From NCBI RefSeq assembly GCF_030845195.1, contig NZ_CP132543.1, positions 3,489,501 to 3,553,500 of the forward strand: 64,000 nt of DNA, written 5' to 3'. Shown in pieces: positions 1 through 62,600 of this stretch. A program made the position numbers and the translations under genes. The notes beneath the pieces were generated by a model. It was not told the origin of the DNA and ran no database searches. It worked only from the letters and a program-made list of their open reading frames with translations. This DNA is from Sanyastnella coralliicola. GTDB taxonomy: Bacteria > Bacteroidota > Bacteroidia > Flavobacteriales_D > Sanyastnellaceae. How positions within the stretch are numbered: the first letter of the stretch is position 1; every line of letters starts with the position of its first letter.

Positions 1-627
1 GAGTTATCCATTTCGTATAATATTAACATCGTCGGGGGAAGCATGCCTGAACTTGTCGATAATAAACTGTACAACGTTGGTTATCTCTGTAAACGCGATG
101 GTACCATCGAACGCTACGAGAAGCTTCACGTCACTCCGGATGAAGCCAAAGTATGGGGAATGCAAGGCGGACAAGAGTTGAAAGTATTCGACACCGATTG
201 TGGAAAGGTCGGTATTCTTGTGTGTTATGATTCTGAATTCCCTGAACTCAGCCGATTACTGGCTGATGATGGGATAGAAATCTTATTCGTACCATTCTTA
301 ACGGATACCCAGAACGGATACTCGCGAGTTCGTAACTGCGCCATGGCAAGAGCCATTGAGAATGAGTGTTATGTCGCTATCGCGGGAAGTGTAGGGAATT
401 TACCAAATGTGCACAATATGGATATTCAGTACGCTCAATCCATGGTGCTTACACCCTGTGATTTTGCTTTTCCGAGTAATGGAATCAAAGCTGAAGCAAC
501 ACCGAACAACGAAATGATTTTGATCGCAGATGTAGATATAGATCTGCTAAAAGAGCTGAACAAGTTCGGGAGTGTCCGAAATTTGCGAGACCGAAGAACC
601 GACGTTTATCGGTTGACAAGAATATAA
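1..627 (+). CDS. Carbon-nitrogen hydrolase (nitrilase superfamily), C-terminal part
   Basis: The reading frame is open from base 1, so the 5' end lies outside the window and 208 residues are visible. Two of the three nitrilase-superfamily catalytic residues are visible: the lysine in YEKLH (visible residue 41) and the nucleophilic cysteine in VCYDSEFPE (visible residue 75); the glutamate would be upstream. The C-terminal wording (AGSVGNLPNV, GSVRNLRDRR) resembles the hydrolase half of the Bacteroidota GNAT acetyltransferase/carbon-nitrogen hydrolase fusions, so an N-terminal acetyltransferase domain may lie before the window; this is inference. The substrate is unknown. The convergent polyamine operon next door raises N-carbamoylputrescine amidase as an alternative, but the fusion type fits better. 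It ends in a hairpin shared with the convergent gene. Confidence 0.85.
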   Translation, partial: ELSISYNINIVGGSMPELVDNKLYNVGYLCKRDGTIERYEKLHVTPDEAKVWGMQGGQELKVFDTDCGKVGILVCYDSEFPELSRLLADDGIEILFVPFLTDTQNGYSRVRNCAMARAIENECYVAIAGSVGNLPNVHNMDIQYAQSMVLTPCDFAFPSNGIKAEATPNNEMILIADVDIDLLKELNKFGSVRNLRDRRTDVYRLTRI

Positions 628-654
628 TGACCCCAGAAATGGGGTCATTATATT
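621..654. terminator. Bidirectional convergent hairpin holding both stop codons
   Basis: A perfect 14-bp inverted repeat (621-634 with 641-654) has a 6-base loop. The TAA of the upstream plus-strand gene (625-627) lies in the left arm and the TAA of the minus-strand gene (653-655) overlaps the right arm. There is no long T-tract, so termination efficiency is uncertain, but position and symmetry fit a shared terminator. Confidence 0.7.
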
Positions 655-946
655 AATCATCGTCTTCAGAATCTGATGACTCATAATCGTAATCATCAGA
701 CTCACTAAAGCTATCTAACGTGAAATCGCCGTCTGTGTGGTCATCAATAGCTTCAAGCATTCTTGTATCTATCTTGAATAGATAAAGAAAATCATCCGTC
801 TTGATCTCAAGACCTCTGAAGCTCGAACCATCCGCTTTGCGGAAAGTGATCAAATCCTCAATCTCAAACCCTTCAGGGTATTCTGCTGCTATCAGGTCTA
901 GGTGACGCTTTTCGATTGAGTTGTAGTCTTTAATTACTCTTTTCAT
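653..946 (-). CDS. Small acidic protein of unknown function, last gene of polyamine operon
   Basis: 97 residues. The N-terminal 70 residues are a mixed alpha/beta-looking segment (MKRVIKDYNSI..., a KADGSSFRGLEIKT stretch), and the last 20 or so are almost only Asp, Glu, Ser and Tyr. There is no signal peptide or membrane segment, so it should be cytoplasmic. Its start codon lies one base from the stop of the deoxyhypusine-synthase-like gene, so the two are probably translationally coupled. I do not recognise a family. A highly acidic tail next to enzymes whose products are polycations suggests a polyamine- or partner-binding role, but that is speculation. Confidence 0.75.
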   Translation of the reverse strand: MKRVIKDYNSIEKRHLDLIAAEYPEGFEIEDLITFRKADGSSFRGLEIKTDDFLYLFKIDTRMLEAIDDHTDGDFTLDSFSESDDYDYESSDSEDDD

Positions 947-947
947 G

Positions 948-1916
948 CTATCGATCTAATAACCAAGAAAACACTAATGGCGCCACGATCGTAGCGTCAG
1001 ATTCAATAATGTATTTCGGTGTATCAATGCCCAGCTTACCCCATGTGATCTTTTCATTCGGGACCGCTCCCGAGTAGCTTCCATAACTCGTGGTGCTGTC
1101 TGAAATCTGACAGAAATATGCCCAAAGTGGTACTTCCGGACGATCCATGTCTTGATGCAACATGGGTACGACACAAATTGGGAAATCTCCGGCGATTCCA
1201 CCTCCAATTTGGAAGAACCCAATGCCTTTGTCATCTGCTTCTTGCGTGTACCATTCAGCTAACCACATCATGTATTCAATTCCAGACTTTGTGGTGCTTG
1301 GTTTCGTATCGCCCATGAGGCAGTGCGCTGCGAAAATGTTCCCTAGCGTGCTGTCTTCCCACCCTGGACAGATAATCGGTAGGTTCTTTTCTGCCGCAGC
1401 TATCATCCAAGAATCCTTCGGGTCGATTTCGTAGTACTGTTCGAGTACTCCTGAGTTGAGTGCTTCGTAGAAGAATTCATGCGGGAACATGCGTCGGCCT
1501 TCGGCCTCAGCCTTCTTCCAAATATCAACCATGTGGCCTTCTAGACGACGAAAAGCTTCGTCTTCTGGAATGCAGGTATCGGTGACGCGGTTCAGTCCGC
1601 GATCAAGTAGTGCTTGTTCATCTTCAGCTGTCAAGTCGCGGTAGTGAGGAACGCGCTGGTAGTGGCTGTGTGCCACGAGATTCATCACGTCTTCTTCCAA
1701 ATTGGCTCCAGTACAAGAGATGATATGCACCTTGTCTTGGCGGATCATTTCGGCCAGTGTTTTCCCTAACTCCGCAGTACTCATGGCACCCGCGAGAGAG
1801 ATTAACATCTTCCCACCTGCTTCCAGGTGACGCTCATATCCTTTGGCCGCATCTTTAACGACAGCGGCGTTGAAGTGGAGGTAATGCTCCTCAATAAAAT
1901 CTCTGATTGCTCCCAT
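948..1916 (-). CDS. Deoxyhypusine synthase-like protein
   Basis: 322 residues, close to the length of the family. In eukaryotes and archaea deoxyhypusine synthase moves an aminobutyl group from spermidine to a lysine of eIF5A using NAD. Visible family features are the NAD-site-like CTGANLEEDV near residue 70, the Gly-rich IGGGIAGDF near 240, and the catalytic lysine of the WGK motif (W292-G293-K294, in ITWGKLG). Bacteria have no eIF5A, so the acceptor must differ; bacterial relatives include homospermidine synthases, while many are uncharacterised. It lies 3 bases after the agmatinase-like gene and just before the small acidic gene, so a role in polyamine metabolism is well supported by context, but the reaction is not. 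Confidence 0.88.
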   Translation of the reverse strand: MGAIRDFIEEHYLHFNAAVVKDAAKGYERHLEAGGKMLISLAGAMSTAELGKTLAEMIRQDKVHIISCTGANLEEDVMNLVAHSHYQRVPHYRDLTAEDEQALLDRGLNRVTDTCIPEDEAFRRLEGHMVDIWKKAEAEGRRMFPHEFFYEALNSGVLEQYYEIDPKDSWMIAAAEKNLPIICPGWEDSTLGNIFAAHCLMGDTKPSTTKSGIEYMMWLAEWYTQEADDKGIGFFQIGGGIAGDFPICVVPMLHQDMDRPEVPLWAYFCQISDSTTSYGSYSGAVPNEKITWGKLGIDTPKYIIESDATIVAPLVFSWLLDR

Positions 1917-1919
1917 AAC

Positions 1920-2780
1920 TCAGGAATTAAAACAGTACGAAAGTATCTTGTAATACAGCTTTGCAGCTAAGAAATCTGAAGGTTTGCTGTGTTCATTTGC
2001 AGCCAATTCCACAATGTCGAATCCAACCACTTTACCGGTCTTGCAAAGGGCCTTGAGCAAGCGCAGCACTTGGTACCACCCCAAACCTCCAGGTTCCGGT
2101 GTTCCGGTATGTGGAACGATCGATGGGTCGAAACCATCGAGGTCAATGGTAATGTAAACGTGGTCTGTGCACTTGGCTAATACTTCGCTCATCCACTCAA
2201 CATCCGGACGATGGTTGCAATCATGGGCCATCCAGGTCTTGGATAGATCCATGTGCTCCTTCTCCGATACATCCATGCTGCGGATGCCTACTTGCAAAAG
2301 ATTCGTGTTGTAGCGCGCCCAGTGCAGGGCACAGGCGTGATTGCATTCGCTGCCTTCGTAGGTCGGTCGTAAATCGGCATGAGCATCAATTTGGAGGACG
2401 GTGAGTTCTTCGTATTTCGCAGCATGTCCTTGGATTGATCCGATGGAGATTGAGTGTTCACCCCCGAACAACGTGATCATTCTATGCGATTCGAGTGAAG
2501 CGTCGACTCTTCTTCGCACCTCATCGGTCATGGCTTCAGGAGATCGGTTCACGGTGACGTCTGGGGCAAGCCAAATTCCTTGGCGATACACCTCGCTGTC
2601 TGTCTCGATATCGTAGAGCTCCATGTTTTCGGCGGCTTCCAAGAAGGCTTCCGGACCATGATCAGCTCCTTTACCCCAGGTAGACGTGCCATCATAGGGT
2701 ACACAGATCAATTCTACCGCTGCCGATTCCGCGCTAGCGAATTCAGCAGGAATACCAGCAAAAGTGCGCTCCTTATTCAT
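1920..2780 (-). CDS. speB: Agmatinase / arginase-family ureohydrolase
   Basis: 286 residues, normal for ureohydrolases. All six binuclear manganese ligands of the family can be placed: H109 in GGEHS, D132-H134-D136 in DAHADLR, and D213 and D215 in DLDGFDPS. Agmatinase splits agmatine into putrescine and urea. The agmatinase reading over arginase comes from the partner: the start codon overlaps the end of the arginine decarboxylase gene by 8 bases, so the decarboxylase product is the likely substrate. Formiminoglutamase or guanidino-acid hydrolase activity cannot be excluded from sequence alone. The segment encoding residues 14-18 contains one copy of the 13-base motif reported below. Confidence 0.88.
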   Translation of the reverse strand: MNKERTFAGIPAEFASAESAAVELICVPYDGTSTWGKGADHGPEAFLEAAENMELYDIETDSEVYRQGIWLAPDVTVNRSPEAMTDEVRRRVDASLESHRMITLFGGEHSISIGSIQGHAAKYEELTVLQIDAHADLRPTYEGSECNHACALHWARYNTNLLQVGIRSMDVSEKEHMDLSKTWMAHDCNHRPDVEWMSEVLAKCTDHVYITIDLDGFDPSIVPHTGTPEPGGLGWYQVLRLLKALCKTGKVVGFDIVELAANEHSKPSDFLAAKLYYKILSYCFNS

Positions 2781-4170: not shown

Positions 4171-4212
4171 GGGAAATGTTGAGTCGATTCTAAAGATGTT
4201 TACCAAACACTT

Positions 4213-4338: not shown

Positions 4339-4447
4339 TATCATTTCGCAGTGCAATGTTAGAACAAAGATTCTTCAGTTTGACAGAATTCGATTTCAAA
4401 TCAAAAAAATTTGAGATTACTATCTTGGGACTACTAAAACCCAAACT

Positions 4448-6076: not shown

Positions 6077-7696
6077 ATGACTGTCTCTACGAATGGATTC
6101 GTTCCAAAAGCGAAGGTAATTGCCGCTATTCTCTCCTTTTTTCTACTCAGTATTTCTTCGTTCGCCCAAGAAGGGTGTACCGACCCTTCAGCCGCAAATT
6201 TCAACCCCTTTGCCTCCGTTGATGATGGCTCATGTGCGTATGCTGGATGTATGAATGAATTCGCATGCAATTATGACGCTAGCGCGGAAGTGCCTGGTCC
6301 TTGTGAGTACCCTTCATGTAGTGATCCTGAATCAAACAACTACAACCCCAATGCACTTTGCTTTGATGATGAGCTCTGTCAAGGATTGACCATCCCATAT
6401 TTAACGGCCGTCACAGACACAGTGCACCAAGGCATGGTGGGAACAACTGACCTCACGGGCTACATCACTACACGGTTGTACTTGAATCTTGTCGAAGAAG
6501 CTCAACTAGCTGCGATGTATGGATTAATCATGGAAGACGAGAACCCTGATGAAAACGACATTAACGTCGAATTCGAGTGTGATTGCTTCGACCATGAGTT
6601 AGGAGGCTTGCTTGCAAATGATCATTCTTGTCTGTTCTACGACTCATTCCCTGAACTTGAGTTTGACAGCTACTTCACGATTAATCAAGAGAACTCGTGT
6701 GATCCAGGGTTTACAGCTGAAGCGGTGACTGTTCCATCTGGGTTCAATGAAGACTTCTGTGATACATGGATCGATGACGGTGCCATCTTTACCTTGTTCG
6801 ATTCAGAAAACTCCTATGCAGACGAAAACAATCAAGTATTCGTAGCGCAGGTGACGACTTGCGGCAATTTCGAAATGGGGTTTTCGGTTCAATATTTCGT
6901 CGAAGGTGAGGTTGATGGGGGTGGAAACCCAACGCCTATGATGAATTATGTTTCCATCAGCGTTCAATTCGGATGTACCGACATCGAAGCCCCAAATTTC
7001 AACCCCTACGCGAACAGCGACGATGGCTCATGTGAAGCTCCGTTAGTAGAAGGTTGTACTAATATTTTTGCGTGTGACTATGACCCAGAAGCTGAACTGG
7101 CTACGGCCTGCACTTACCCTGAATGCAACGATATCAACGCGTGCAACTATGTTTCTAATGTTGAGTGTTCTGATAGTGCCCTCTGCTTGTACCCAGCCAC
7201 TGGAAACCTTGCTGGCGAGGCATTCCCGCTTCTCGAAAACACATACACCTACACTTACGACGGCGATCCAAACGGCGACTATGAATGGCAAGTTACTGGA
7301 GGGACTATCGTAGAAATGCCTGCGCCGAACGTCATTGTAGTAGAGTGGGATGAACTTGGTCAACAAATCATCACCGTCCTTCACAACGATGGTGACTGTC
7401 CTGGATTTGGTCCTTCGTTCGATGTATTCGTAGACCAAATCGACAACGTAGATCTACTAGAGCAGGAAACGCTCAATGTCTACCCTAATCCAGCCCATGA
7501 ACTCCTCACCTTCGAGGTTCCGGAGAACTACATTGGCATTGCTTACACCTTGACATCAACCAACGGCAAGGTGGTTAGACAAGGCGTCATTAACAGCACC
7601 CGCCAGGTCATCAATGTTACAGATCTAGCCTCCGGCACATACTTGTTGACCTTAGATCAACCGATTGTGGTTCCGGTGACAGTCGTAGTTCGTTAA
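6077..7696 (+). CDS. Secreted Cys-repeat protein, paralogue of preceding gene, T9SS type A
   Basis: 539 residues. The hydrophobic segment at 13-30 ending SSFAQ is a signal peptide with an extended n-region; no closer ATG is better placed. Three Cys-rich units come first (about 32-95), then the same roughly 180-residue domain as in the preceding protein (QGMVGTTDL, YGLIMEDENPDE, CFDHELGG), then three more Cys units (about 297-370), a sandwich-like segment (YEWQVTGGTI) and a T9SS type A sorting domain starting at VYPNPAHELLTF. The domain order is thus rearranged relative to its neighbour: one array sits before the shared domain and one after. The pair probably arose by tandem duplication. Function is unknown. 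Confidence 0.9.
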   Translation: MTVSTNGFVPKAKVIAAILSFFLLSISSFAQEGCTDPSAANFNPFASVDDGSCAYAGCMNEFACNYDASAEVPGPCEYPSCSDPESNNYNPNALCFDDELCQGLTIPYLTAVTDTVHQGMVGTTDLTGYITTRLYLNLVEEAQLAAMYGLIMEDENPDENDINVEFECDCFDHELGGLLANDHSCLFYDSFPELEFDSYFTINQENSCDPGFTAEAVTVPSGFNEDFCDTWIDDGAIFTLFDSENSYADENNQVFVAQVTTCGNFEMGFSVQYFVEGEVDGGGNPTPMMNYVSISVQFGCTDIEAPNFNPYANSDDGSCEAPLVEGCTNIFACDYDPEAELATACTYPECNDINACNYVSNVECSDSALCLYPATGNLAGEAFPLLENTYTYTYDGDPNGDYEWQVTGGTIVEMPAPNVIVVEWDELGQQIITVLHNDGDCPGFGPSFDVFVDQIDNVDLLEQETLNVYPNPAHELLTFEVPENYIGIAYTLTSTNGKVVRQGVINSTRQVINVTDLASGTYLLTLDQPIVVPVTVVVR

Positions 7697-15384: not shown

Positions 15385-17528
15385 AACGCATCCTCCTCCA
15401 TATCGCCATTTTCTTTGCTCCCGTTTCCGCGCTAGCGCAATTCGTGGTATTGAATGAATATGGAGTAGAAAACGATCGCATCACTTGGGTAGAACTCTAC
15501 AACCCGCTTGAAGAAGAGGCGTCATTGAACGGCTGGAGCATTGCCATTGGCGATAGCTTGATTCATTCATTGGCGAGCGTCACTGTTGAAGCAGAATCAT
15601 ACGCCGTTGTCAACCTTCAGGGCTCCAACTTCGAGCTCCGCAAAGACCTCTACTCTTTTGCGATTGAAAGCGAACAAGAAATTGTGGTGTACAATAATAA
15701 CGGTCAGCCGATGACCGCATTAGACCTGGTGTGTGTGCCGGAAGGATACAGTTTCGGTGCGAATTCAGGTTGGCCGCAGCAGATTCACTTCGCCACAAAA
15801 ACTCCAGGCACCGAGAACACGGATGCAATTGATCTTTCGCGCCAATACCTTTCGTTTGAAGGACCAGAGCACATCTCAAATGAATCAAACTTTGTGATTG
15901 CTGAAGGGGCTTCCATTGACCACTTAATCCGCTATGATATGGCGGGTAATTTGGTCCACAAGGGAAGCGCAATGTGGCCCAATGAAGGAATGACTCTTGA
16001 TGCGTCGAACATCAACAACACAGAGCTTTCGCTGATTCCGGCCAGTGGTATTTACCTACCTCCTGTTGGAGAACAAGATCAAGCACATACGATTACCATC
16101 CAGAGTTATCACAACGGATGTCCGACATCAACGTCGGAACGCAAGACTTTCTTGGTCGAACTCGGCGACGAAAACCCATACGACTTACCTGTTGTGGCCA
16201 TCACAACCGAAGATGACAACCTCTTTGGTGACTCCGGAATTTACGGTTACGGCGAGACGGGAAATAACTTTGCCTTCCGAGGAAGAAAATGGGAACGCGA
16301 AGCTACTATTCAATACTTTAACGAAGACGGAGAAGAATTACTACATCAAAACGTAGGACTGCGTATTCGCGGAAACTCTTCTCGTTTCTCTCCACAAAAG
16401 TCATTCAAAATCTACGCACGCAACAGCTACGGAGAAGGATGGCTTGACAATGTGTTCTTCCCTGAATCTGGGGTAGAAGAATTGAAACGTTTCAACCTAC
16501 GAACGCCGCACAACGACTTCATTCGAAGCTTGACCACCGATCATATTTCTATGAACGCCGTAGGTGACCTCAACATCGATGCTCCTGATTCTAAGCAAGT
16601 GATCGTATTCCTGAACGGTGAATTCTGGGGGCTTTACGCTCTACAAGAGGCCATGGATGATTACTTCCCGGAAAGCCACTATGGCGTGAACGATAACGAT
16701 GTGAGCTTGATTGAGGACGAAGATTATGGAGAGCGCTATGCATCAATATTGCAATACGCCAAAGACAAAGACCTCACCATCCCTGAAAATTACGAGTACC
16801 TCACTTCGCATTTCGACATGCCGTCGCTAATTGATTATTACGCGGCGCAAATCATTGTAGCCAACTGGGATTGGCCTTACAAAAATGTCAAGATGTGGTA
16901 CGAAGAGGATCTTGGGAAAATCCGCTACTACTTCTTTGACTGCGATGCCTGTTTGAACGAAGTCAATCACTCCACGCTCGAGCAATTCTATCCAGAAATC
17001 AACACCAGTTCTTCACGGGTGATCTTCTCTCGACTGTTGCAAGTGCAAGAGTTCAGGCAGCAATTCGGCGCACGCCTCATTTCCATCTTGAACAATCAAA
17101 TGTCTGTGGAGAACCTATTAGAGCTCACGCGTCAAGAAAAGTTGCGTATTGAGCCCATCGTTTCAAGACAGATCAGTCGTTGGCGATACCCACAGAGCTA
17201 CAGTATTTGGGAAGCTTCTACAGAAAGCATTGAGTACTTCTTGATTGAACGTCAACTAGAGATGATTCACATTATCGAGCAAATGATGAACGAAGACCTC
17301 ATGGTGTATCCAAACCCTGCGGCTCCGAACTCAATCCTCAATGTCAAGAGCTACGGCATGCTTTCAGAGCAGTTTGACTACGAGATCACCGATCTTTCAG
17401 GACGAATCGTTCAGCAGGGATCAGGCTACAATGAGCAGCTCGATATTCGAGGATTATCTACCGGATTGTTTGTCTTACGCGTTCAGAAAGACGGCTATCT
17501 GCTGTCTTCGCGATTTGTCGTGCGTTAA
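15381..17528 (+). CDS. Secreted CotH-kinase-fold protein with lamin-tail-like domain and T9SS type A sorting domain
   Basis: 715 residues. A signal peptide ends at ALAQ (about 20). Residues 21-115 resemble a lamin-tail domain (VVLNEYGVENDRITWVELYN, LNGWSI). Residues about 230-600 are a CotH domain: GLRIRGNSS near 331, SFKIYARNSYG, RFNLRTPHND, FWGLYALQEAMDDYF, and the metal-site-like YFFDCDACLN near 515. CotH proteins are atypical extracellular kinases in spore formers. The last 75 residues form a T9SS type A domain (YPNPAAPNSILNV to RFVVR). Expected location is the cell surface. The stop codon overlaps that of the convergent anti-sigma gene by two bases. The phosphorylated target, if any, is unknown. 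Confidence 0.9.
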   Translation: MKRILLHIAIFFAPVSALAQFVVLNEYGVENDRITWVELYNPLEEEASLNGWSIAIGDSLIHSLASVTVEAESYAVVNLQGSNFELRKDLYSFAIESEQEIVVYNNNGQPMTALDLVCVPEGYSFGANSGWPQQIHFATKTPGTENTDAIDLSRQYLSFEGPEHISNESNFVIAEGASIDHLIRYDMAGNLVHKGSAMWPNEGMTLDASNINNTELSLIPASGIYLPPVGEQDQAHTITIQSYHNGCPTSTSERKTFLVELGDENPYDLPVVAITTEDDNLFGDSGIYGYGETGNNFAFRGRKWEREATIQYFNEDGEELLHQNVGLRIRGNSSRFSPQKSFKIYARNSYGEGWLDNVFFPESGVEELKRFNLRTPHNDFIRSLTTDHISMNAVGDLNIDAPDSKQVIVFLNGEFWGLYALQEAMDDYFPESHYGVNDNDVSLIEDEDYGERYASILQYAKDKDLTIPENYEYLTSHFDMPSLIDYYAAQIIVANWDWPYKNVKMWYEEDLGKIRYYFFDCDACLNEVNHSTLEQFYPEINTSSSRVIFSRLLQVQEFRQQFGARLISILNNQMSVENLLELTRQEKLRIEPIVSRQISRWRYPQSYSIWEASTESIEYFLIERQLEMIHIIEQMMNEDLMVYPNPAAPNSILNVKSYGMLSEQFDYEITDLSGRIVQQGSGYNEQLDIRGLSTGLFVLRVQKDGYLLSSRFVVR

Positions 17529-18313
17529 AGCACTACAGAAGCCACCAAGTTTTCTACTGTAGCATGATCGCTACCCCCAGCCTTTTCAATGGTAATGTTC
17601 AAGCTTTCGGCATTCGCCAAAAAGCCCACTTCAACCGGCGCATCGCTTTGAGCTAGAACGCCCACACTCACCATTTCACCCTCAACGTCTGCCCACATCT
17701 GGAAGCATTGTCCGTTGTCTAGCGCAGGTAGGTTCTCAGGCTGCAAGAAAGCTCTTTGATCACTATCGTTCCAATACGCCACTACCTTGAGTTCTGGAGC
17801 TTTTGCAAGTCCACTTAGAATCAACTTCTGCGTATTTGGGTCAGTAATCAAGGCGCGTTCTGCCATCAATTGTTCTTCGCTAGCGCGGAATCGTTGCATA
17901 GCTTCAGCCAGCTCAGTGTTGCGCTTATTGACCTCAGCCAATTGCTGCTCTAATTGTCCGACTTTATACATATTCCAGGCGGCGAAAGAACCAATAATAA
18001 CAATGGCCGCCGCTGCTGCAACACGCGACCAATTCAGGCTTCGCTTCGCAGGCGCAGGCATCTCAGCTGCCTGTCGGCTTTGTACATCGATGTCGGCCAT
18101 CACGTTGTGCAATACGGCCACCGGTGCTGGTCTTTTCGTCTTCTCGGAAACAAATTGAAGGTCTTGTTGAACGATCATCCATGCTTCTTCAATCTGAGGG
18201 ACCGTTGTAATAAGGGTTTCTACCCGTTCCGCGTTAGCGTGTTCACGACCTTGCAACGCATAAGCTTCAAGCTCACCCGAGTCAATAAATGCTATGATCT
18301 CTTCGTGCGTCAT
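17525..18313 (-). CDS. RskA-like membrane anti-sigma factor
   Basis: 262 residues from the ATG at 18313, which overlaps the sigma-factor stop as ATGA; a TTG three codons upstream is less likely. The N-terminal 90 residues are a cytoplasmic sigma-binding region without an obvious zinc HxxxCxxC motif, followed by one membrane segment (about 95-115, VAAAAAIVIIGSFAAW), a coiled coil (about 118-150) and a C-terminal extracytoplasmic RskA domain (VVAYWNDSDQRAFLQPENLPAL, CFQMWADVEGEMVSVGVL). It should hold the co-transcribed ECF sigma factor inactive at the membrane. Two copies of the 13-base motif lie in this gene (17878 and 18227). Confidence 0.9.
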   Translation of the reverse strand: MTHEEIIAFIDSGELEAYALQGREHANAERVETLITTVPQIEEAWMIVQQDLQFVSEKTKRPAPVAVLHNVMADIDVQSRQAAEMPAPAKRSLNWSRVAAAAAIVIIGSFAAWNMYKVGQLEQQLAEVNKRNTELAEAMQRFRASEEQLMAERALITDPNTQKLILSGLAKAPELKVVAYWNDSDQRAFLQPENLPALDNGQCFQMWADVEGEMVSVGVLAQSDAPVEVGFLANAESLNITIEKAGGSDHATVENLVASVVL

Positions 18314-19654: not shown

Positions 19655-20773
19655 ATGAAATTCACTCCTATGTTGTCTATTTCTCTTTTGATGATGTCTG
19701 TTCTTTTCGCTTGCGCGGAACCGCAGGCCCCTGAAAACCAAGATCCGGTTTCCACAGATGTCAACTACGAATTAGTCGTTGATGGGCTTTCTGTTCCATG
19801 GGCGATGGCTTGGCTACCTGATGGCTCCATGCTAATCACCGAGCGAGACGGAAGACTCATTCAATTTAAGGATGGAAACAAGACAGAGATTGGTGGTGTC
19901 CCAGTGGTAGTCGCACGCGGACAAGGAGGACTGTTAGACATCTGTTTGCACCCTGAATACGCATCAACTGGTTGGATTTACTTGACTTATTCCTCTCCTG
20001 ATGGGGAAGAACGTGGAGCACACACTGCCTTGATGCGTTGTAAACTAGAAGGTAATTCGCTTACTGACCAGGAGATTTTATACAAAGGCGCTCCTAATAC
20101 ATCCAAAGGACATCACTTCGGATCACGCATCGTATTTGACAACGACGGTTACCTCTATTTCTCGATCGGTGAGCGTGGCGAACGTGATGAAAATCCGCAG
20201 AACATCTACCGCGACGGAGGTAAGATCTACCGCCTGAACGACGATGGAAGCATCCCTAAAGACAATCCCTTTTGGAACGACAATAGCGCCAAGAAAGCCA
20301 TTTGGAGCTATGGCCACCGTAATCCTCAAGGCCTAACCAAACATCCTGAAACTGGTGTCATCTGGGAGCACGAGCACGGACCGAAAGGCGGCGATGAGCT
20401 CAATATTATAGAACCAGGTAAGAACTATGGCTGGCCAGTCATTACTTATGGTATCAACTACAGCGGCACCAAAATCACCGACGAAACCCACCGCGAAGGC
20501 ATGGAGCAACCTATCCACTACTGGATTCCATCGATCGCCCCAAGCGGGATGACCTTCGTTGATTCCGATAAATATCCCGATTGGAAAGGCGACCTTCTGG
20601 TGGGCTCACTTTCATTCCAATACCTCGAACTCGTAGAAATGGATGGTGATCAGGTCACCGGACGCCAACGCCTCATGGAACGCATCGGCCGTGTGCGTGA
20701 TGTACGTCAGGGTCCTGACGGGTACATTTATGTAGCGGTGGAGAATGAAGGGATCTTCCGCATCCTACCGTGA
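19655..20773 (+). CDS. PQQ-dependent sugar dehydrogenase family lipoprotein (Yli-I/GSDH type)
   Basis: 372 residues. The N-terminus has a lipobox (LMMSVLFAC, Cys at 20), so the protein is a lipoprotein. The rest is a six-bladed propeller of the glucose/sorbosone dehydrogenase family: SVPWAMAWLPDGSMLITERDGRL, GGLLDICLHPEY, GHHFGSRIVFDNDGYLYFSIGERG, YGHRNPQGLTKHPETG, WEHEHGPKGGDELNI, and a C-terminal GRVRDVRQGPDGYIYV. The expected reaction is PQQ-linked oxidation of aldose sugars in the periplasm. The gene stands alone between terminators, and no PQQ biosynthesis genes are visible, so the cofactor would need another locus or uptake. The lipobox codons contain one copy of the 13-base motif. Confidence 0.92.
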   Translation: MKFTPMLSISLLMMSVLFACAEPQAPENQDPVSTDVNYELVVDGLSVPWAMAWLPDGSMLITERDGRLIQFKDGNKTEIGGVPVVVARGQGGLLDICLHPEYASTGWIYLTYSSPDGEERGAHTALMRCKLEGNSLTDQEILYKGAPNTSKGHHFGSRIVFDNDGYLYFSIGERGERDENPQNIYRDGGKIYRLNDDGSIPKDNPFWNDNSAKKAIWSYGHRNPQGLTKHPETGVIWEHEHGPKGGDELNIIEPGKNYGWPVITYGINYSGTKITDETHREGMEQPIHYWIPSIAPSGMTFVDSDKYPDWKGDLLVGSLSFQYLELVEMDGDQVTGRQRLMERIGRVRDVRQGPDGYIYVAVENEGIFRILP

Positions 20774-38560: not shown

Positions 38561-38617
38561 TACTTCGTATAACAACGCGTAACTAAACCGACCCGAAATA
38601 TTCGGTGATACGAAGTA
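38561..38617 (+). promoter_or_regulatory. Inverted repeat closing on the adhesin start codon
   Basis: TACTTCGTAT (38561-38570) and ATACGAAGTA (38608-38617) are perfect complements; an inner CCGAA-ATA-TTCGG hairpin (38593-38605) lies between. The right arm ends on the first base of the ATG. In mRNA this would place the start codon at the foot of a stem-loop. Confidence 0.5.
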
Positions 38618-44600: not shown

Positions 44601-47600
44601 AAGCGAGATTGTCTTCCCTGCCCAAGGAACTTGGACCTTGATTAGCGGAGGCGGAGTTATCGCCGATGCAAACGATCCAAACACTGTAGTTGACAACCTT
44701 CCTGTAGGTGAAAATATCTTCGAATGGACAGTCGACAACGGCTCTTGTCCTGATGGAATTACAACTGACCAAGTCAGCATCTTCGTTTTTGACGAGACAC
44801 AAGCAGATGCCGATGCTGGTCCAGATCAGTCATTGTGTACTCCTGTGCCTTCGATCAACCTTGACGCGAACGCGGTGATCTTCCCAGCAGAAGGTACTTG
44901 GACATTGGTTCAAGGTGCCGGAACGATTGCTGACATCAATGATCCGAACACCGTAGTAACTGATCTCGCTGTAGGTGAGAACATCTTCAGTTGGGAGATT
45001 TCCAACGGCCCATGTGGTGCCCCTACGATTGACTACGTGAGCATCTTCATCTTCAACCAATTCAACCCTGACGCTGATGCAGGAGAAGATCAAGAGCTGT
45101 GTTCACCAGACTTTAGTACCACGCTAGAAGGCAACAGTCCGCAATTCCCTGCTGGTGGAACTTGGACCCTTTTCTCAGGTGCGGGTACGATTGATAGTCC
45201 GAATAACCCGAACACCTTGGTTACTGACCTTGAAATCGGCGAAAACATCTTCGTTTGGACGGTTGACAATGGTCCTTGTGCTAACGGTATTACTTCTGAT
45301 ACTGTGAGTGTGTTTGTCTTTGACGCTAACGCGGAATTGGCAGATGCCGGAGCAGATCAAGAGCTATGTACACCAGGAGTTACAACGAACCTTGATGGTA
45401 ACACGCCTCAATTCCCAGGCTCAGGTACATGGACATTAGTGAGCGGAAGTGGAACTATCCTAGATCCTAGCGATCCATCTACCGAAGTTCAAGACTTGGC
45501 GGTAGGTGAAAACGTATTTGAATGGACCATCTACAACGGACCTTGTGCGCAAAGCGGATCAAGTGACCTCGTGAGCATTTTCGTCTTTGACGAAAACCAA
45601 CCAGATGCTGACGCCGGACCTGATCAACAACTGTGTACTCCACAGATTAGTACGACCATGGCAGCCAATGATGTCACCTTCCCAGCAGAAGGTACATGGA
45701 CGCTATTCCAGGGGTCAGGAACGATCGTGGATGAGAACGATCCGAACACCATCATTACTGACCTTGCGCCAGGAACAAACATCTTCGTTTGGACGATCTC
45801 CAACGGTCCGTGTGCGAATGCATTGACTACGGATACCGTGATCATTTCTCTCTTCGAGTTTGATGCTGAAGATGCTGTAGCTGGGCCAGATCAAGAATTC
45901 TGTCTTCCAATCACATCAACTACACTTGACGCTCAAGAACTACTTGGAGCAGCGACAGGAATGTGGACTGTGGTTCAAGGAAACGCGACCTTCGATGACC
46001 CTACGTTGTATAATACCGGAGTTACCGACCTCGGAGTAGGTGAGAACATCCTTGAATGGACCGTAGATAACGGCCCTTGTGGTTCTACTTCTGACCTCGT
46101 TTCGATTTTCATCTTCGATCCAGAAGCAGAAGAAGCGAACGCAGGTGAAGATCAGTTCTTCTGTACTCCAATCAGTACGACGACTCTTGAAGGAAACGTA
46201 CCTGATGCTCCAGGAGTAGGAACGTGGGAACTCGTATCTGGAATGGGTACTATCGAAAACCCGAATGATCCGAACACCGCACTTAGTGGTCTGACCATCG
46301 GTGAAAATATCTTCTCGTGGACTATCTACAATGGCCCATGTGAAGAACCTACGACAGACCTCGTTTCGATCTTCATTTACGATGAAAACATGCCAGAAGC
46401 AGATGCCGGAGACGACATCGAACTCTGTTTGCCAGTTTCAACAACAACACTTGACGCGGAAGCAGCCATTTTCCCTGCCTTCGGTACATGGGAATTGATT
46501 ACCGGAAACGGAACCATTGGCGATGTGAACGATCCAAACACGATTGTAAGCGGACTTGAACTTGGAATCAACACCTTCGTTTGGACCATCAACAACCTTC
46601 CATGTCCTGGAGGAATCTCTAGCGATACGGTAACGGTATTTGTCTTCGAAGAAGGAATCGAAGCAGCTTTCGCTGGTGATGATCAGTTCTACTGTTCGCC
46701 GACCAGCACAGCAGTGCTCCAAGCCGACGAACTCACGGAACCGAACACTGGTACCTGGGAGTTGGTTGCTGGAGACGGTGTCATCGGTGATCCATTTAGT
46801 CCAACGACTCCAGTAAGCGCGCTCACCGTAGGTGAAAACATCTTCGCTTGGACTGTGTACAACGGACCATGTGATCTTGCCTTAAGCAGCGACACCGTTT
46901 CGATATTCATCTATGATGAAAACCAACCGCCAGCAGATGCCGGTGAAGATCAAGAACTATGTCTTCCAACGAATTCAACTTTCTTGGAGGCCAACAACCC
47001 AATCTTCCCAGCTACAGGATTCTGGAACTTGGTAGAAGGAAGCGCCAACATCGTGGATCCATTCGATCCAGAAACGATGGTGACCGACCTTGGTTTAGGT
47101 GTGAACACCTTCGAATGGACCATAGACAATGGGCCATGTGAAGATGCTATTACAGTTGATTCAATTACCATTCTGGTCTTCTCAGAAGACGCTGCAGTTG
47201 CAGACGCCGGAGACGACATTGAAATCTGTACACCTGAAAGCCAGGTAACACTTGGAGCGACTGAACCTGAAATCCCAACGACGGGAACTTGGGAAGTGAT
47301 TCAAGGTGATGGAAGTGTTTCTGACGTGAACGATCCAAACGCTGTTTACAGTGGATTGACGGTTGGAGAACATATTCTTCAGTGGACGATTTACAACGGA
47401 CCTTGTTTGAATAACAACACCTTTGATTTCGTAACAATCCACGTGTACGACGCTACTTCACCATTGGCTGAAGCAGGTAATGATCAAGAACTCTGTTCAC
47501 CAGAAGAAACAGCACAGCTGGATGCAGCACCCCCAATCTTCCCTGCGGAAGGAACGTGGTCTGTGGTTCAGGGAGCTGGTTCGATTAGCGACGTAAATGA

Positions 47601-49754: not shown

Positions 49755-49781
49755 TTGCTATTCAGTTATTGCCATCTATCT

Positions 49782-51950
49782 ATGAAGATCTTCAAATACA
49801 TACCTATCCTCATGATCCTCGGACTGGCAGCTGTTCCGCTCCATTCGCATGCTCAGAAGTTCAAGCTGAAGCTAGCGGAGGAGAGTTACAACGCCTTCAA
49901 CTTCCGAAAGGCAGCTGAGATCTATGAAGATATCATCGAGAAGAACCCTGATGACGCCTCATCTACTCGCCGTGCTGGGGAGTGTCGTATGCGCATCAAT
50001 GATTTCGATGTGGCGGTACAACACTATCGCACACTTGACAGCCTGAAGGAGAGCACTCCTGAAGACCTCTTGAACTATGCCTATGTTCTGAAGGTAACCC
50101 AGCAATATGATGCCGCGGTGGTCGTATATGAATACTATATGGCCAACAACGAAGATGAATACCTCGTTGGCTACACCGACGTGGATTGGGCCAACCGTAT
50201 TGTTCGAGACAGTTCGCGTTTCGAATTGACAGAGATGTCGATTAACAGTCCTCAAAGTGATTTTGCTCCCGCTTTCGCGGAAGAGGGAATCGTCTTTTCC
50301 AGCGCCCGAAAGCAAGGGAAAGGGAAGCGAAACATCTACTCTTGGACGGATCAGAGTTACTTGAATCTCTACGAAGCAAAAATCGATACTGATTCCACCT
50401 TGATGGATCCGAAGGTGATGAAGAATAAGGCGAATAGTCGTTTCCACGAGGGAACGATCACTTATGATCTTCAACAGAAAATCATCTACTTCACAAGAAA
50501 TAACTACCTCAAAGGGAAACAAGACGATGACGGCGGACGATTGAACCTTGGTATCTACTACGCTAGCTATGCCGAAGGCAAGATCAAGAAGCTCAAGCCG
50601 TTCCCATTCAACGACCCAACATACTCTGTTGGACACCCCGTGATTTCTCCGGATGGCAAAGCGATGTACTTCGTCAGTGACCAACCAGGAGGTCAAGGAG
50701 GAACTGATATTTATGTCTCTTACCGAAACCTAGACTTCTGGTCTGAACCTGAAAACTTGGGCCCAAAAGTCAATACCCCAGGAAATGAGATGTTCCCGTT
50801 CATTGACGAACAAGGAACCTTCTACTTCGCTTCCGATTGGCACCCTGGTCTAGGTGGGCTCGACTTGTTCTACACGGAACTCGATGAGGAAAGCGTACCC
50901 GTGAAGAACTTCGGTTACCCAATTAACAGTAGCTATGATGACTTTGGTTTGATCACTTACCCTGATGGATTGAGAGGTTACCTCTCGAGTAATCGTCCGG
51001 GAGGAACTGGGGATGATGATATTTATGCCTTCAAGATCAATCCGGCAACCATGGTGCAGATCAGCGGACGTCTGCTCGATCAAGCCACCGGAAACCCGAT
51101 TCCAAATGGTACCATTCTGTTGAAAGATCAGTTCAACCAGGAAGTTCTTGAGGTGGTTGCAAATACCGACGCAGAAGGGCGTTATCAATTCGACGTTCCG
51201 TTCGATGAAACCTATACCATTATGGGGGTGAAGAATGGCTACTTCCAAGCGGAGAAGAAAGTCAACAGTAGCGACAAATCTGGGTTCCTCGATAGAGTAG
51301 ATCTAGAACTGACCGCCTATGATTACGCAGCAGAAGGACGCGTTCTGTACAGCGACACAGGGTTGCCTGCAGTTGGCGCCACCGTGACCTTGACAACGAT
51401 CGAAGGCGAGGAGCTTCAGCAAATGTTGGCCGAAGACGACGGAAGCTACTTCTTCGGTCTAGACCCAGAAACGCAATACATGATAGAAGCGATCAAGGCT
51501 GGATATCCGCCTCAAAGCATCGAAGTAGATACGCGAGGAAAGCCGGCGACTGTGATCCATTCAGACCTCCGTCTCTTTAAGTATGAAGAGGGAACCGTAG
51601 TGCGACTTGACAATATCTACTACGACTACAACAAGTCTGAAATTCGTGATGATGCTCGTCGTGACCTTGACCGATTGGTTCAGATCATGAATGAAAATCC
51701 GAACATGAAAATTGAGTTGAGTTCCCACACAGATGCACGTGGTACTGACAGTTACAACCTTCGTCTATCAGACCGCAGGGCAAAGGCTGCAGTGAATTAC
51801 CTCGTATCGAAAGGTATTGACAAGAAACGAATGACAGCCAAGGGCTACGGTGAAACGAAACTGCTCAACGATTGTGGAAACGACGTGGAGTGTACGGAAC
51901 GTGAACATCAATTGAACCGACGAACAGAGTTCAAGATCCTTGACATATAA
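49782..51950 (+). CDS. OmpA-family protein with TPR, PD40 propeller and carboxypeptidase-regulatory-like domain
   Basis: 722 residues from ATG 49782; a TTG at 49755 is rejected because it precedes the signal peptide (IPILMILGLAAVPLHSHAQ). TPR helices occupy about 25-125, PD40-type propeller strands about 170-430 (VISPDGKAMYFVSDQPGG, PGNEMFPFIDEQGTFYFASD), two transthyretin-like segments about 435-600, and an OmpA peptidoglycan-binding domain about 610-722 (NIYYDYNKSEIRDDARRDL, SSHTDARGTDSYNLRLSDRRA). Proteins of this layout accompany PorP/SprF and type B adhesins and may anchor the complex to peptidoglycan. The gene starts 27 bases after the SprF-like gene and ends the operon. Confidence 0.95.
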   Translation: MKIFKYIPILMILGLAAVPLHSHAQKFKLKLAEESYNAFNFRKAAEIYEDIIEKNPDDASSTRRAGECRMRINDFDVAVQHYRTLDSLKESTPEDLLNYAYVLKVTQQYDAAVVVYEYYMANNEDEYLVGYTDVDWANRIVRDSSRFELTEMSINSPQSDFAPAFAEEGIVFSSARKQGKGKRNIYSWTDQSYLNLYEAKIDTDSTLMDPKVMKNKANSRFHEGTITYDLQQKIIYFTRNNYLKGKQDDDGGRLNLGIYYASYAEGKIKKLKPFPFNDPTYSVGHPVISPDGKAMYFVSDQPGGQGGTDIYVSYRNLDFWSEPENLGPKVNTPGNEMFPFIDEQGTFYFASDWHPGLGGLDLFYTELDEESVPVKNFGYPINSSYDDFGLITYPDGLRGYLSSNRPGGTGDDDIYAFKINPATMVQISGRLLDQATGNPIPNGTILLKDQFNQEVLEVVANTDAEGRYQFDVPFDETYTIMGVKNGYFQAEKKVNSSDKSGFLDRVDLELTAYDYAAEGRVLYSDTGLPAVGATVTLTTIEGEELQQMLAEDDGSYFFGLDPETQYMIEAIKAGYPPQSIEVDTRGKPATVIHSDLRLFKYEEGTVVRLDNIYYDYNKSEIRDDARRDLDRLVQIMNENPNMKIELSSHTDARGTDSYNLRLSDRRAKAAVNYLVSKGIDKKRMTAKGYGETKLLNDCGNDVECTEREHQLNRRTEFKILDI

Positions 51951-57326: not shown

Positions 57327-60300
57327 TTAGAAAGTGGCGCGCACCTGCACACTTCCGACATGGACCGCCGGTGTATCGGCGGCTGTTCTACCATTATAGA
57401 GCAAGTTGAGCTGCAACGTTCGAGAAATAGACCGTTGTATGCTCATTTGCCATGTCGCATTTCGCCCGGGTTGAAGTCCTTCCAAGAGTTCAAATGCCAA
57501 CGTATTATTCGCAGTGCCATCAAACGCGATGTCTAGCCAGTTGAATCGAGCTTCGAACAATCCCTTTCCTGGATCTGAAAAACGTGCTGCCAAACCAATG
57601 TCAGCGATGCGGCTGCTTTCCCCGGTGCCTTCTTGTTCATTTACTTTTTCAACCCACCTTCCATTCAAGGTAACTCGGAAGGTATTTGACGGTTGCCATT
57701 GTAATTCGGGAGATGCAGAGGTATAATCAATCATGTAGTTCCTACCCGTGAGGAAATCAGAGCTGGTTGATTTCGTTCCCTCCTTCAGTGTGACGATCAA
57801 GGTGAATTCACTCAAGATGCTCTTTCGAATTTTCACCTCATTGAACTCCTCACTTCTGGTCTCAAATCCGTTGGCCAACAATGCTTTGTTTCCAAGGTCT
57901 TGGTAGGTGTATTCTAGACCGAAATTCGGATTTGATCGGTCGAATGAAAGGGTGTTTCGAAGGGAAGACCCAAGGCTGATGAGGCTCGTATCAGCGAGTC
58001 CGCTTTCCAGTGGGTTTAGACGCTCCCACCCCTCTCCATCTGTCGTTTTACGATCAAGGCGAATGGAGGCCGCATTGCTAAATCGCGAGATAAATTTCTT
58101 CGTGCCTGTTTCATTCGCCCACGCTCGAGCGGGCTGGAATTGCGCGTTGGCTGTGAATTGATTCGTGAATGTTCGTAGGTATTCATCTGAAGGAACGAAG
58201 GTTCGGATATAATTCGCTTCATAGGCGAAGTTGGCAATTTCGAATTCGTTCAGGTCACGAATGCCATCTCCGTTATAATCCACCCAGATGTAGTTTCCTT
58301 GACCGGCGGGTACTTCGATGTAAATGAACTGTCGCGCCTGTTCCAGTCCTGAACCTGTTTGATAGAAAACCTGTCCGCTCAAGATATTGTTGAAGAAGCT
58401 TCCCGCTCCTTCCAAACGTCCTAGCAAGGTTTCTTCAGGTTGGTTCGTCGTCAAGGCGGAATCAACAACCGAAAGACGCCGTTGACTAACGTTCCAGCTG
58501 ATTCTCCGTTGTTTCTTCGATGTCCAGCCCCCTTCAACACCATAGGCTTCAGCTTGGGTAGCCAAAACTAGGTCACTGCTGAGTGGCAATCGGTCTGTAC
58601 GTTCGCTGTAGAACAACTTCCACTTGAAGGCCTGTTCTTCGAGGCTTCCCAACCACCCTTGCCATTCGTGAAAGCGATAGGAGTTCAGTGCTAAACTATC
58701 GCCCACAAAAAAGCGGTTCCACTCAAAGTCATCAATGTACCCGATACGAACAGGACCCACTGGTATGGCTAAGTCAGTTTTCTGTCTCAGGTAATTTGTC
58801 TCTCGTAAACCGTCGCTTTGCGTAGCACTACCTTGCCAGTTCAGTTTTCGTCCCTTTTCAGCATAACGGATGAACGAACTTCCGCGATAGCCAGTAAATC
58901 CTGATCCAGATTGAAAAGTAGAAGCTTCAACACTCACGCTGTAGATGCTTGAATTGTTCATCTGAACAGCCACCCCCCCTACGTGTTGATCGCTAGACAA
59001 TACGAGGTCACGCACATTCCAATCACGATCAAATTCAACGGAGCGGAAGCGCTCGATTTCACTAAAATTCTCTGAGATGTACTCCTGGAATACCCGAACG
59101 CCCCATTTTGCTTTCGAATCTTTATTCCGCGATAGCGAACGTTGAATACGCCAATCAGTGAAGATTCCCAAACCACTATTATCTGCGGCATCTAAGGTGG
59201 AGAAGGTATTGTCGTCGCGAGAGGTAATGGCGGCCTCCACATAAAGTTGATGGTCCTCACTCCAGGTAATTTTCCCCCCTCCTGTAATCATCTGTCGCTT
59301 CTTCGGACTCACCAATTGTCGAACCGGAGCATGGTCACCATTCCGAACAAGGACATTGTTCACCGTATCAGGCGCCACCCATCGATAGACCCGTCCGTTC
59401 GCACCAAAGCCGTCTTCAACATAATCTCCGTTGCCAGCACCAACCAAGCTGAAAACTGCACGATATAAGGCCGTTTCTGAATTGTTGCTCAATACTAATA
59501 CGCTATCATATCCGAGGGTGTCAATCAGTGCATATAACACCTGGTCATCGGTAAACCCAACGCTGTCAATAGCGCTGTTGACGGCTGAAAGCACGTCGTC
59601 ACCCACATTGCTGAGCAAGGTTCGATCGTCCACATCCAAATCTTGTTGTAGCGGCTGGTTTTTGCTGTCTTGTTCTGCCAATGCATGCACAAACCAAGAG
59701 TACTTGCCTTGCTCTCCTTTGATCTCACCTTGCAGCAGGGAACGTGCATAGTTTCGATCAGCATATTGAAACTCCACCACAATCCTTCGATCCTTGGTGA
59801 TGAGGTTCTTCGGCGTGAATGTGACTTCAGCGGTGTTGTAGTCGATGGTATAGTCAAAGGCCTGTCCGCGTTGGAGCAACTTCCCATCAATGAAAACGCG
59901 TTCCGTTCCGGCCATGATGATGATAAATCGTTCATTTTCCGCACCAATCAAACGGTACGGCCCTTGGTTCCCTTCGACACCTTGGATGATATTTCGGGCA
60001 AACTTTCCTTTGCTAATCGCCGCGCTGGCCGAAGCTTCATAGGTACCTATAGAATCGCTCCACTGATAACTGGCTGTTCCCCCTCGTGCGCGTTTCTGAT
60101 ACCTCAAAAAGTGGTCTTCACGCTCTGTGATTTGAAAGTCTCCCGCCGTGATCAAGGTCTGGTCATCAAATACCTGAATGTAAACCTGATCAAAATCTTG
60201 CAGCTGCTGCGTATTCCCGTCTGGTTGGATTGGAATGTTATCGTCAGTGATACTAGCTAAAACACTGAAGCGCTCGGTGATCTTTCCACTTAATTGGAGA

Positions 60301-60758: not shown

Positions 60759-60762
60759 TGTC

Positions 60763-60790
60763 CAAATCTAACGTTCTGCCCAGAGTTCAA
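60763..60790 (-). promoter_or_regulatory. Promoter directly abutting a TTG start codon
   Basis: On the minus strand TTG (60790-60788), 17 bases, TAGATTTG (60770-60763), then only four bases to the TTG start codon. Transcription should begin at or next to the start codon, so the mRNA may be leaderless. Confidence 0.65.
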
Positions 60791-60808
60791 CGTATACAGA
60801 ACGTAAGA

Positions 60809-61871: not shown

Positions 61872-61888
61872 AAGGTTCTCATTCCCTT

Positions 61889-61896
61889 CAAAAGTA
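61889..61896 (-). promoter_or_regulatory. -7 element of the lipoprotein promoter
   Basis: TACTTTTG on the minus strand matches TAnnTTTG and ends 17 bases before the lipoprotein start codon. No clear TTG element at the right distance. Confidence 0.5.
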
Positions 61897-61906
61897 CGCT
61901 TTTGGC

Positions 61907-61914
61907 TAACTTTG
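61907..61914 (+). promoter_or_regulatory. -7 element of the thymidine kinase promoter
   Basis: TAACTTTG matches TAnnTTTG; the ATG is only 8 bases further on, so the transcript would have a leader of a few bases at most. The -33 element is poor (TTC at 61887-61889, 17 bases upstream). Confidence 0.55.
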
Positions 61915-61922
61915 GCCTCTAT

Positions 61923-62600
61923 ATGACTCCAGAAAGTATCGATAAACGAGGAAGCCAGCGTGGTTGGATCGAGGTGATCTGCGGCTCGATGTTCTCTGGA
62001 AAGACCGAAGAGCTCATCCGGAGAATGCGTCGTGCGCAGTTTGCGCGCCAGAACGTTGAGATCTTCAAACCTATGGTAGACGTTCGTTATAGCGACACCG
62101 AAGTGGTTTCGCACGATAAGAAAGCGATCCCGTCTACCCCTGTCCCTCACAGTTCTCAATTGTTGTTGATGGGGTCTGGCGTTGATGTCATCGGCATTGA
62201 CGAGGCTCAATTCTTTGATGACGGTTTGCCTGAGGTCTGCAGCCAATTAGCCAACCAAGGTATCCGAGTCATATGCGCCGGTCTTGATCTTGACTTTTTG
62301 GGTCGTCCTTTTGGTCCTATGCCTGAATTGCTCGCTATCGCGGAATTCGTAACGAAAGTGCATGCGATATGTATTAAGACAGGAGATTTAGCCCACCATT
62401 CATTCCGACTAAATCAAGATAATAGCCTCGTGGCTTTAGGCGAAAAAGACCTTTATGTTCCGCTATCGCGGGAAGCGTTCCAGCGCGCAATGAAGGATCC
62501 GTCGTACATTACTGAGGAAGACCTTGCTGCCATTCGCAGCGTACTCGAAAAAGAAGAACCGGAACCAACCGAAGATGCTCAACCTGACGAACTTGCTTGA
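61923..62600 (+). CDS. tdk: Thymidine kinase lacking the structural zinc site
   Basis: 225 residues from ATG 61923; a TTG at 61902 lies upstream of the promoter element and is rejected. Phosphate-binding loop GSMFSGKT (21-28), catalytic E94 in [10 protein letters not shown], and the [15 protein letters not shown] segment are intact, so dTMP formation from thymidine and ATP is expected. The four zinc-binding cysteines of TK1-type enzymes are reduced to one: C150 remains in CIKTG, but the others are T153, S182 and A185 (PLSREAF in place of the usual PLCRxCY). The C-terminus is extended and acidic ([17 protein letters not shown]). It overlaps the next start by 26 bases. Confidence 0.95.

Follow-up and report, generated by a model that had tools for sequence, protein, structure and literature searches.

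A short DNA hairpin with a one-sided tag is iterated in the genome of Sanyastnella coralliicola and has lineage-specific dialects among its relatives

Background

Bacterial sex leaves a clear genomic trace in the form of uptake sequences; the literature listed in our search treats those of the Neisseriaceae and Pasteurellaceae. DNA uptake sequences (DUS) and uptake signal sequences (USS) occur in hundreds of copies per genome, are extremely over-represented on both strands and show a bias in their orientation to open reading frames (ORFs) (PMC2346458), and in the Neisseriaceae they form lineage dialects (PMC3630211). Here we describe a 13-base element, CGCTWNCGCGGAA, that shares these traits and is dispersed through a stretch of 64,000 nucleotides of Sanyastnella coralliicola (hereafter the window; positions 3,489,501-3,553,500 of its single contig of 4,097,636 bp), a member of the Flavobacteriales.

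Like DUS and USS, the element is asymmetric, has a T-rich flank and appears to have accumulated in place, and its dialect is shared by two close species. Unlike them, it is a tagged, base-paired hairpin in which the arms compensate each other and the loop varies, it occurs in a different phylum, and type IV pilus machinery is not found in every carrier, one congener lacking both PF00437 and PF07963.

Three other kinds of signal are comparable. HIP1 and the alternate highly iterated palindromes (HIPs) of cyanobacteria are over-represented, and other words replace them in some lineages (PMC4390886). The element shares these properties, but HIPs are palindromes tied to methyltransferases, whereas here the arms pair across a 4-nt loop, the tag lies on one side and the stem sequence varies. 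Repetitive extragenic palindromes (REPs) and GTAG- and CGTC-tagged palindromes also combine a hairpin with a short foot, some tagged palindromes being intragenic (PMC3733652, PMC6006769), and Y1/RAYT transposases are known readers of foot-plus-hairpin DNA (PMC6006769). REPs, on the other hand, are 20-65 nt long, lie largely between genes and insert, whereas the present sites are 13-19 nt long, lie mainly in genes, carry no clear sign of insertion and do not cluster at RAYT genes. Chi has a similar density and differs between species, but consists of linear words of 5-8 nt with a replication bias, in contrast to a hairpin that has none. No published description of such a signal was recognised among the matches listed from the openly licensed literature on Bacteroidetes/Flavobacteria uptake sequences, iterated palindromes, hairpin-type uptake signals and the literal words. 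We know of no uptake sequence or HIP1 that is kept as a structure; judged from sequence, this would be a new trait.

Abundance and distribution of the motif

An initial annotation of the window had reported 16 exact matches to CGCTWNCGCGGAA as a strong over-representation on both strands. All 16 were recovered (10 on the plus and six on the minus strand), against none in 100 dinucleotide shuffles (mean 0.00). They run from 2727 to 62345, inside the annotated span of 375-62474, which is slightly too wide. Two sites with compensated stems lie outside the annotated pattern and are included below; ORFs are those of a simple custom caller, not of an annotation.

2727..2739, minus strand: hairpin CGC-TAGC-GCG-GAA, sense in ORF 1920-2780 (arginase family, Pfam); first copy in the window
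6277..6289, plus strand: hairpin CGC-TAGC-GCG-GAA, sense in ORF 6077-7696 (Por_Secre_tail protein, Pfam)
15425..15437, minus strand: hairpin CGC-TAGC-GCG-GAA, antisense in ORF 15381-17528 (CotH, Pfam)
17878..17890, plus strand: hairpin CGC-TAGC-GCG-GAA, antisense in ORF 17525-18322
18227..18239, minus strand: hairpin CGC-TAAC-GCG-GAA, sense in ORF 17525-18322
19708..19720, plus strand: hairpin with loop variant TTGC, sense in ORF 19655-20773 (GSDH, Pfam)
27988..28000, plus strand: hairpin CGC-TACC-GCG-GAA, sense in ORF 26975-28624 (beta-lactamase family, Pfam)
30041..30053, plus strand: hairpin with loop variant TTAC, antisense in ORF 29397-30941
30888..30900, plus strand: hairpin CGC-TAGC-GCG-GAA, antisense in ORF 29397-30941
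32519..32531, minus strand: compensated stem GGC-TACC-GCC-GAA, sense in ORF 30938-32791
32747..32759, minus strand: hairpin CGC-TAGC-GCG-GAA, sense in ORF 30938-32791
35497..35509, minus strand: hairpin CGC-TATC-GCG-GAA, sense in ORF 34096-35613
40890..40902, plus strand: hairpin CGC-TACC-GCG-GAA, sense in ORF 38605-48819
45324..45336, plus strand: hairpin CGC-TAAC-GCG-GAA, sense in ORF 38605-48819
50270..50282, plus strand: hairpin with loop variant TTTC, sense in ORF 49755-51950
51285..51297, minus strand: compensated stem CTC-TATC-GAG-GAA, antisense in ORF 49755-51950
59125..59137, minus strand: hairpin CGC-TATC-GCG-GAA, sense in ORF 57327-60758
62333..62345, plus strand: hairpin CGC-TATC-GCG-GAA, intergenic by the custom calls and spanned by a 232-aa ORF (61902-62600) in another ORF list; last copy

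Eleven of the 16 exact copies are in gene sense, four are antisense and one is intergenic, so both orientations to the gene occur, as annotated. The whole source genome (G000) contains 802 copies, 417 forward and 385 reverse, whereas the reversed pattern, counted on both strands as a control, gave 0 + 0. The word CGCTAGCGCGGAA alone was found 58 times against 0.01 expected from an order-3 Markov model (464 kb of G000, long repeats masked). The motif is thus neither confined to the window nor close to its Markov expectation. All k-mer, gapped and tag scans were run on sequence masked in this way for long self-similar stretches. Another family of repeated words, around GCCGGACGCCGGA, was seen in the G000 stretches L034-L053, with CCGGCGTCCGGC in 25 copies in 464 kb, and drops out of the top words once long repeats are masked.

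Matches to the eleven fixed positions of the motif were then counted in an 864-kb sample of G000, consisting of the window and 40 sampled stretches: 201 were exact, and 34, 236, 1734 and 9616 had one, two, three and four mismatches. One-mismatch sites are hardly above the extrapolated background, unlike the large one-mismatch pool of the USS of Haemophilus influenzae. Sites in the G000 sample were in gene sense in 127 of 203 cases, antisense in 65, intergenic in 10 and at an ORF edge in one; 192 lie inside ORFs, and the commonest reading frame is A-x-A-E (110 sites). With about 8% of the sample non-coding, the annotated avoidance of intergenic regions is real but mild. The sites show no clustering, with 9 neighbours at 300 bp or less against 13.7 in simulation. 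Strand bias relative to origin and terminus, which had been proposed as a check, was absent from the sampled sites (100 versus 101 of 201, origin and terminus positioned by GC skew).

The 12 nt upstream of G000 sites are rich in T, at a frequency of 0.42 for sense, 0.48 for antisense and 0.51 for intergenic sites against a background of 0.27. Since the enrichment is alike in the three classes, it is independent of coding. It also precedes the hairpins of the relatives G001 (0.45) and G030 (0.44) described below, and hardly those of G031 (0.30).

Hairpin anatomy and arm covariation

The pattern of variation among sites indicates that the motif is almost certainly a mini-hairpin with a one-sided tag, CGC-TANC-GCG-GAA, and not a plain word. 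The annotated anatomy, with a palindromic CGCTAGCG-like half, was mistaken: it is CGC and GCG that pair, and TANC forms the loop between them. Across 884 kb of G000, sites with an unchanged TANC loop and GAA tag had the arms CGC/GCG in 186 cases, GGC/GCC in 17 and CAC/GTG in 11, with rarer CTC/GAG (4), GCC/GGC (2) and CCC/GGG (2).

The same was examined in two congeners of S. coralliicola, G001 and G002, and in G031, from another genus; all belong to a set of 114 family genomes, many of them incomplete. For the six commonest stems, in six-by-six tables, paired versus mixed arms numbered 222/4 in G000, 164/5 in G002 (770 kb) and 38/3 in G031 (142 kb), and 209/4, 159/5 and 38/3 when counting was repeated with long repeats masked. 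These six stems were chosen post hoc, after inspection of G001-type stem counts. With all stems counted and only the dominant one removed, paired sites still exceeded the expectation from the margins in G000 (49 versus 10.5), G002 (48 versus 9.2), G031 (15 versus 2.1) and G001 (37 versus 3.7). A dimer bound to half-sites on duplex DNA should accept mixed arms; the preserved feature is therefore base pairing between the arms.

The best-formed hairpins are those of G001, in which five freely varying pairs are closed by a C-G pair and followed by an RRAA loop and a GGATG tag. In 400 kb, 85 sites had no inner-pair mismatch and 1, 4 and 7 had one, two and three (64 and 1, 3 and 6 after masking), wobble or partial stems being nearly absent from these counts. 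Folded as DNA the G001 hairpin reaches -8.6 kcal/mol, equalled by 0 or 1 of 200 shuffles. The loops as read on the complementary strand (GNTA, GNAT, TTTT/TTCT/TTTC) are similar to classes known to be especially stable in DNA.

Dialects among relatives

CGCTWNCGCGGAA occurs 802 times in G000, 695 times in G002 and once in G001, and among the 114 family genomes only G000 and G002 contain more than five copies. Among 355 genomes of the order, each at least 80% complete, CGCTANCGCGGAA was common only in G000 (770) and G002 (667), with 0-3 copies in the other 353. The CGC-cored subset of the G001 dialect was found 516 times in its own genome and 0-1 times in each of the other 113 family genomes. 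A Markov k-mer search of G001 was tried as a motif finder and yielded only weak motif fragments, because the stem varies.

G031 uses GGC-ATNC-GCC-AAATG, with arms GGC/GCC in 24 sites of the 142 kb, GCC/GGC in 7, GCT/AGC and GAC/GTC in 3 each, GTC/GAC in 1 and mixed arms in 3. The class GSCATNCGSCAAATG counts 703 copies in G031 and 75 in G030, with 0-2 per genome among the remaining 112 of the family. In G030 a single stem, GCC...GGC-AAATG, was recognised in 25 of 43 occurrences of GGCAAATG, with loops of 3, 4 or 5 nt in 10, 9 and 6 cases. Each dialect is confined to a single lineage among the genomes searched.

Iterated-looking words were also found in small samples of 60 kb from three other genomes: CCGAAT-N4-ATTCGG in genes of G041 (5 sites, L245-L247), GCTTCGCGAAGC in G016 (4 sites, L257-L259) and GGATTTGGCC in G045 (10 sites, L248-L250). 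In Nonlabens antarcticus (L097) the palindrome GCTTTCGCGAAAGC lies at 1887, 3835, 8510 and 16127, four sites in 21.8 kb, and is followed by GAAC in three of the four; possibly this is a related signal in the Flavobacteriaceae, the sample being small. Stretches of 59-60 kb from G033 and G047 and of 96 kb from G057 yielded no tagged hairpin that we recognised. In a 60-kb detection test the signals of G000, G002, G001 and G031 were found in each of three subsamples, whereas that of G030 was not found reliably, which makes the absences weak evidence. No tag was shared across the pooled loci of 79 named Flavobacteriales. The G001 stretches L054-L073 additionally contain a long dispersed repeat with GGCGTCCCTATCCGTGTA, in about 90 copies in 400 kb, that is unrelated to the hairpins.

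Conservation and origin of the sites

For a comparison of orthologous positions, 169 kb of the G000 sample were aligned to the G002 sample (91.5% identity), each shared site being counted once from either side. Sites were identical at the fixed positions in 38 of 44 cases from G000 and 38 of 41 from G002, compared with 142 of 414 control windows (34%). Divergence between the two genomes was about 1% in the motif outside its free base and 8.2% in the flanks. Sites of exact form were kept in sense (25 of 27), antisense (5 of 5) and intergenic (2 of 2) positions.

Gaps were scored only where a homolog match of at least 35% identity covered the site, as it did for 25 of the 192 coding sites of G000 and 22 of the 65 of G001. 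Alignments were gapless at 21 of the 25 and 17 of the 22 sites, as expected of the in-place accumulation of DUS and USS, and insertion-type gaps in G000 were no more frequent than at control positions (4% versus 6%). Spread as an inserting or mobile mini-element is disfavoured by these gapless alignments.

A possible role in DNA exchange

The likeness to uptake sequences drawn in the initial annotation holds for the asymmetry, the presence on both strands, the conservation and the lineage dialects; the likeness to a HIP-type palindrome does not, the arms covarying next to a one-sided tag. At the level of sequence, then, there are arms that pair, a constrained loop and tag, and conserved sites in both gene orientations, mostly free of indels and written in lineage dialects. 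For these we propose, with the balance of probability about even, a genome-wide self-recognition tag for DNA exchange that would be read as a folded single strand and spread by molecular drive.

The recognised form would be a short DNA hairpin with a 3' tag, CGC-TANC-GCG-GAA (5'-TTC-CGC-GNTA-GCG on the other strand), and a T-rich stretch 5' of the hairpin. As the tag must pair with itself, its reader would most simply meet single-stranded DNA. A component of DNA exchange may bind the folded tag, most likely one of natural transformation that meets the incoming DNA once it is single-stranded, and tagged homologous DNA would be preferentially taken in or recombined. Such biased transfer would create and keep sites, as has been proposed for uptake sequences, and a change in reader specificity would slowly rewrite the genome and so produce dialects. 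Biased exchange of tagged DNA would account jointly for sites that arise in place, show no replication bias, persist in different gene contexts, are biased in their orientation to ORFs and differ by dialect.

Competence genes, another object of search suggested by the initial annotation, are represented by ComEC in all three congeners. In Riemerella, also of the Flavobacteriales, transformation requires ComEC, DprA, ComF and RecA as well as four functionally uncharacterised proteins with homologs mainly in Flavobacteriaceae; the authors' model names no type IV pilus, though one protein is predicted to lie in a fimbrium (PMC8459023). R. columbina is reported to prefer its own DNA, and the commonest short words listed for it were A-rich ones (PMC7965970). 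A search for the commonest short words could miss a signal whose stem varies.

A broader formulation, that self-identity is coded not by a fixed word but by a structure into which DNA can fold, with its stem complementarity, loop class and foot tag, dispersed in genes by substitution and read from single-stranded DNA during gene exchange, with at least four dialects in one family of Flavobacteriales, is advanced tentatively, as a possibility that falls a little short of even. Comparable palindromes may exist elsewhere in the order. If true, a structure-coded signal in the Bacteroidota would be an independent invention on a different physical principle, the dialects would be natural specificity swaps, and the tag would be a bait for the DNA reader in the transformation machinery of Flavobacteriia, which is only partly identified (PMC8459023).

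Several observations count against the proposal. A role in DNA exchange is something we infer from sequence, and no reader protein was found among the pilus and Y1/RAYT candidates examined; G001, whose hairpins are the best formed, lacks the only candidate uptake pilus. DNA is double-stranded when classical uptake receptors select it. The 3-bp hairpins have little stability as free DNA: they fold at -2.0 to -2.7 kcal/mol, and 12-35 of 200 shuffles do as well. One stem makes up 84% of the tabulated paired sites of G000 (186/222). In G030, 18 of the 43 GGCAAATG occurrences have no GCC arm at loop lengths of 3-5; nine of the 18 are an unpaired variant, GCACAA-GGCAAATG, that does not fit a hairpin, four of them in one locus within about 200 bp of L225. 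Losses between orthologs were all by one or two base changes and none was a compensated arm change, so that the covariation consists of differing stems at different sites and not of observed switches. The conservation of antisense and intergenic copies rests on seven sites, some sites lie inside tandem-repeat proteins (L051), and insertion-type gaps in G001 (4 of 22, 18%) exceed those at control positions (8%), a small excess that we read as noise.

Alternative explanations

The motif could be a classical double-stranded uptake sequence, bound as a word by a ComP-like pilin and pulled in by a type IV pilus. A full PilB/GspE ATPase was found in five of the 114 family genomes, namely in G000, G002, G030 and G031, all of which carry a motif, and in G057, where the match lies on contig C59 (L240) with a GC content of 0.44 against 0.49-0.54 for four other contigs sampled, making contamination probable. 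G000 and G002 contain both the PF00437 ATPase and a PF07963 (N_methyl) pseudopilin, and in each a pilus- or type II secretion system-like operon, rare in the family, encodes pilin, ATPase, secretin and platform proteins together with a peptidase-like protein that is under its Pfam cut-off (G000 C1 about 2,191,783-2,202,798, that is L200 11783-19998 and L045 508-2798; G002 C46, L201). Its pilin is just over the ComP_DUS Pfam cut-off (28.9 versus 27.3 bits). With three genomes compared (G000, G002 and G001) the pilus had seemed decisive as the reader; it was dropped on finding that G001, which matches neither family, has hairpins at a similar density. An advance prediction came out in one half, with motifs in the ATPase-bearing G030 and G031, and failed in the other, the ATPase-free G001 having the hairpin signal and the ATPase-free G016, G041 and G045 iterated words. 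Complementary arms would be needless for a protein that reads duplex DNA, and a comparable Bacteroidetes system, which branches with type IVa pili, has been reported to act in protein secretion (PMC6668835). We regard this explanation as unlikely.

A signal for chromosome maintenance or recombination, of the Chi, KOPS or nucleoid type, seems to us similarly improbable. A density of one per 5 kb resembles that of Chi in Escherichia coli, and Chi is read as a single strand. The lack of replichore bias and the complete turnover between congeners speak against it, and such sites are not known to be hairpins.

A REP-like element, whose hairpin and foot would be recognised, moved or processed by a Y1/RAYT transposase, is disfavoured and has a low probability. 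The layout resembles the guide plus hairpin of REP/IS200 elements (PMC6006769), and Y1 or RAYT-like genes are present in all five motif genomes (G000, G001, G002, G030 and G031), one RAYT gene of G002 lying 340 bp from a single hairpin site, the nearest seen. Such genes are, however, also present in G016, G033 and G047, sampled genomes in which no tagged hairpin was recognised; the sites look like substitutions and not insertions, and the stems of G001 differ freely. Three of the four RAYT genes inspected are among long extragenic palindromes of their own and none is in a mini-hairpin cluster, while Y1 loci hold 0-2 motifs in 2.4-3.3 kb (G033, having no motif, was excluded). The REP-like arrays of long palindromes with RAYT-like genes are at L174 1735-4254, at L070 18564-20000 and upstream in L268, with spacings of, for example, 84, 121 and 247 bp.

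An RNA-level hairpin acting in the stability or processing of messages is very improbable: sense sites are about twice as common as antisense ones, but the sites outside this class, antisense and intergenic, are conserved as well and have the same T-rich flank, and uptake sequences are likewise orientation-biased in ORFs (PMC2346458). That codon use, a shared peptide or dinucleotide composition produced the motif artefactually, as the dominant A-x-A-E frame might suggest, is refuted by the empty shuffles and reversed control, the antisense and intergenic copies, the arm covariation and the single copy in G001, which upholds the annotated view that codon bias or a shared peptide cannot be the whole cause.

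Other features of the window

A Por_Secre_tail domain (Pfam) is carried by three of ten window proteins. The ORF at 38605-48819, with two hairpin sites, is 3404 aa long. At 948-4206, consecutive genes for deoxyhypusine-synthase-like, arginase-family and PLP decarboxylase proteins form a polyamine-type cluster in a bacterium.

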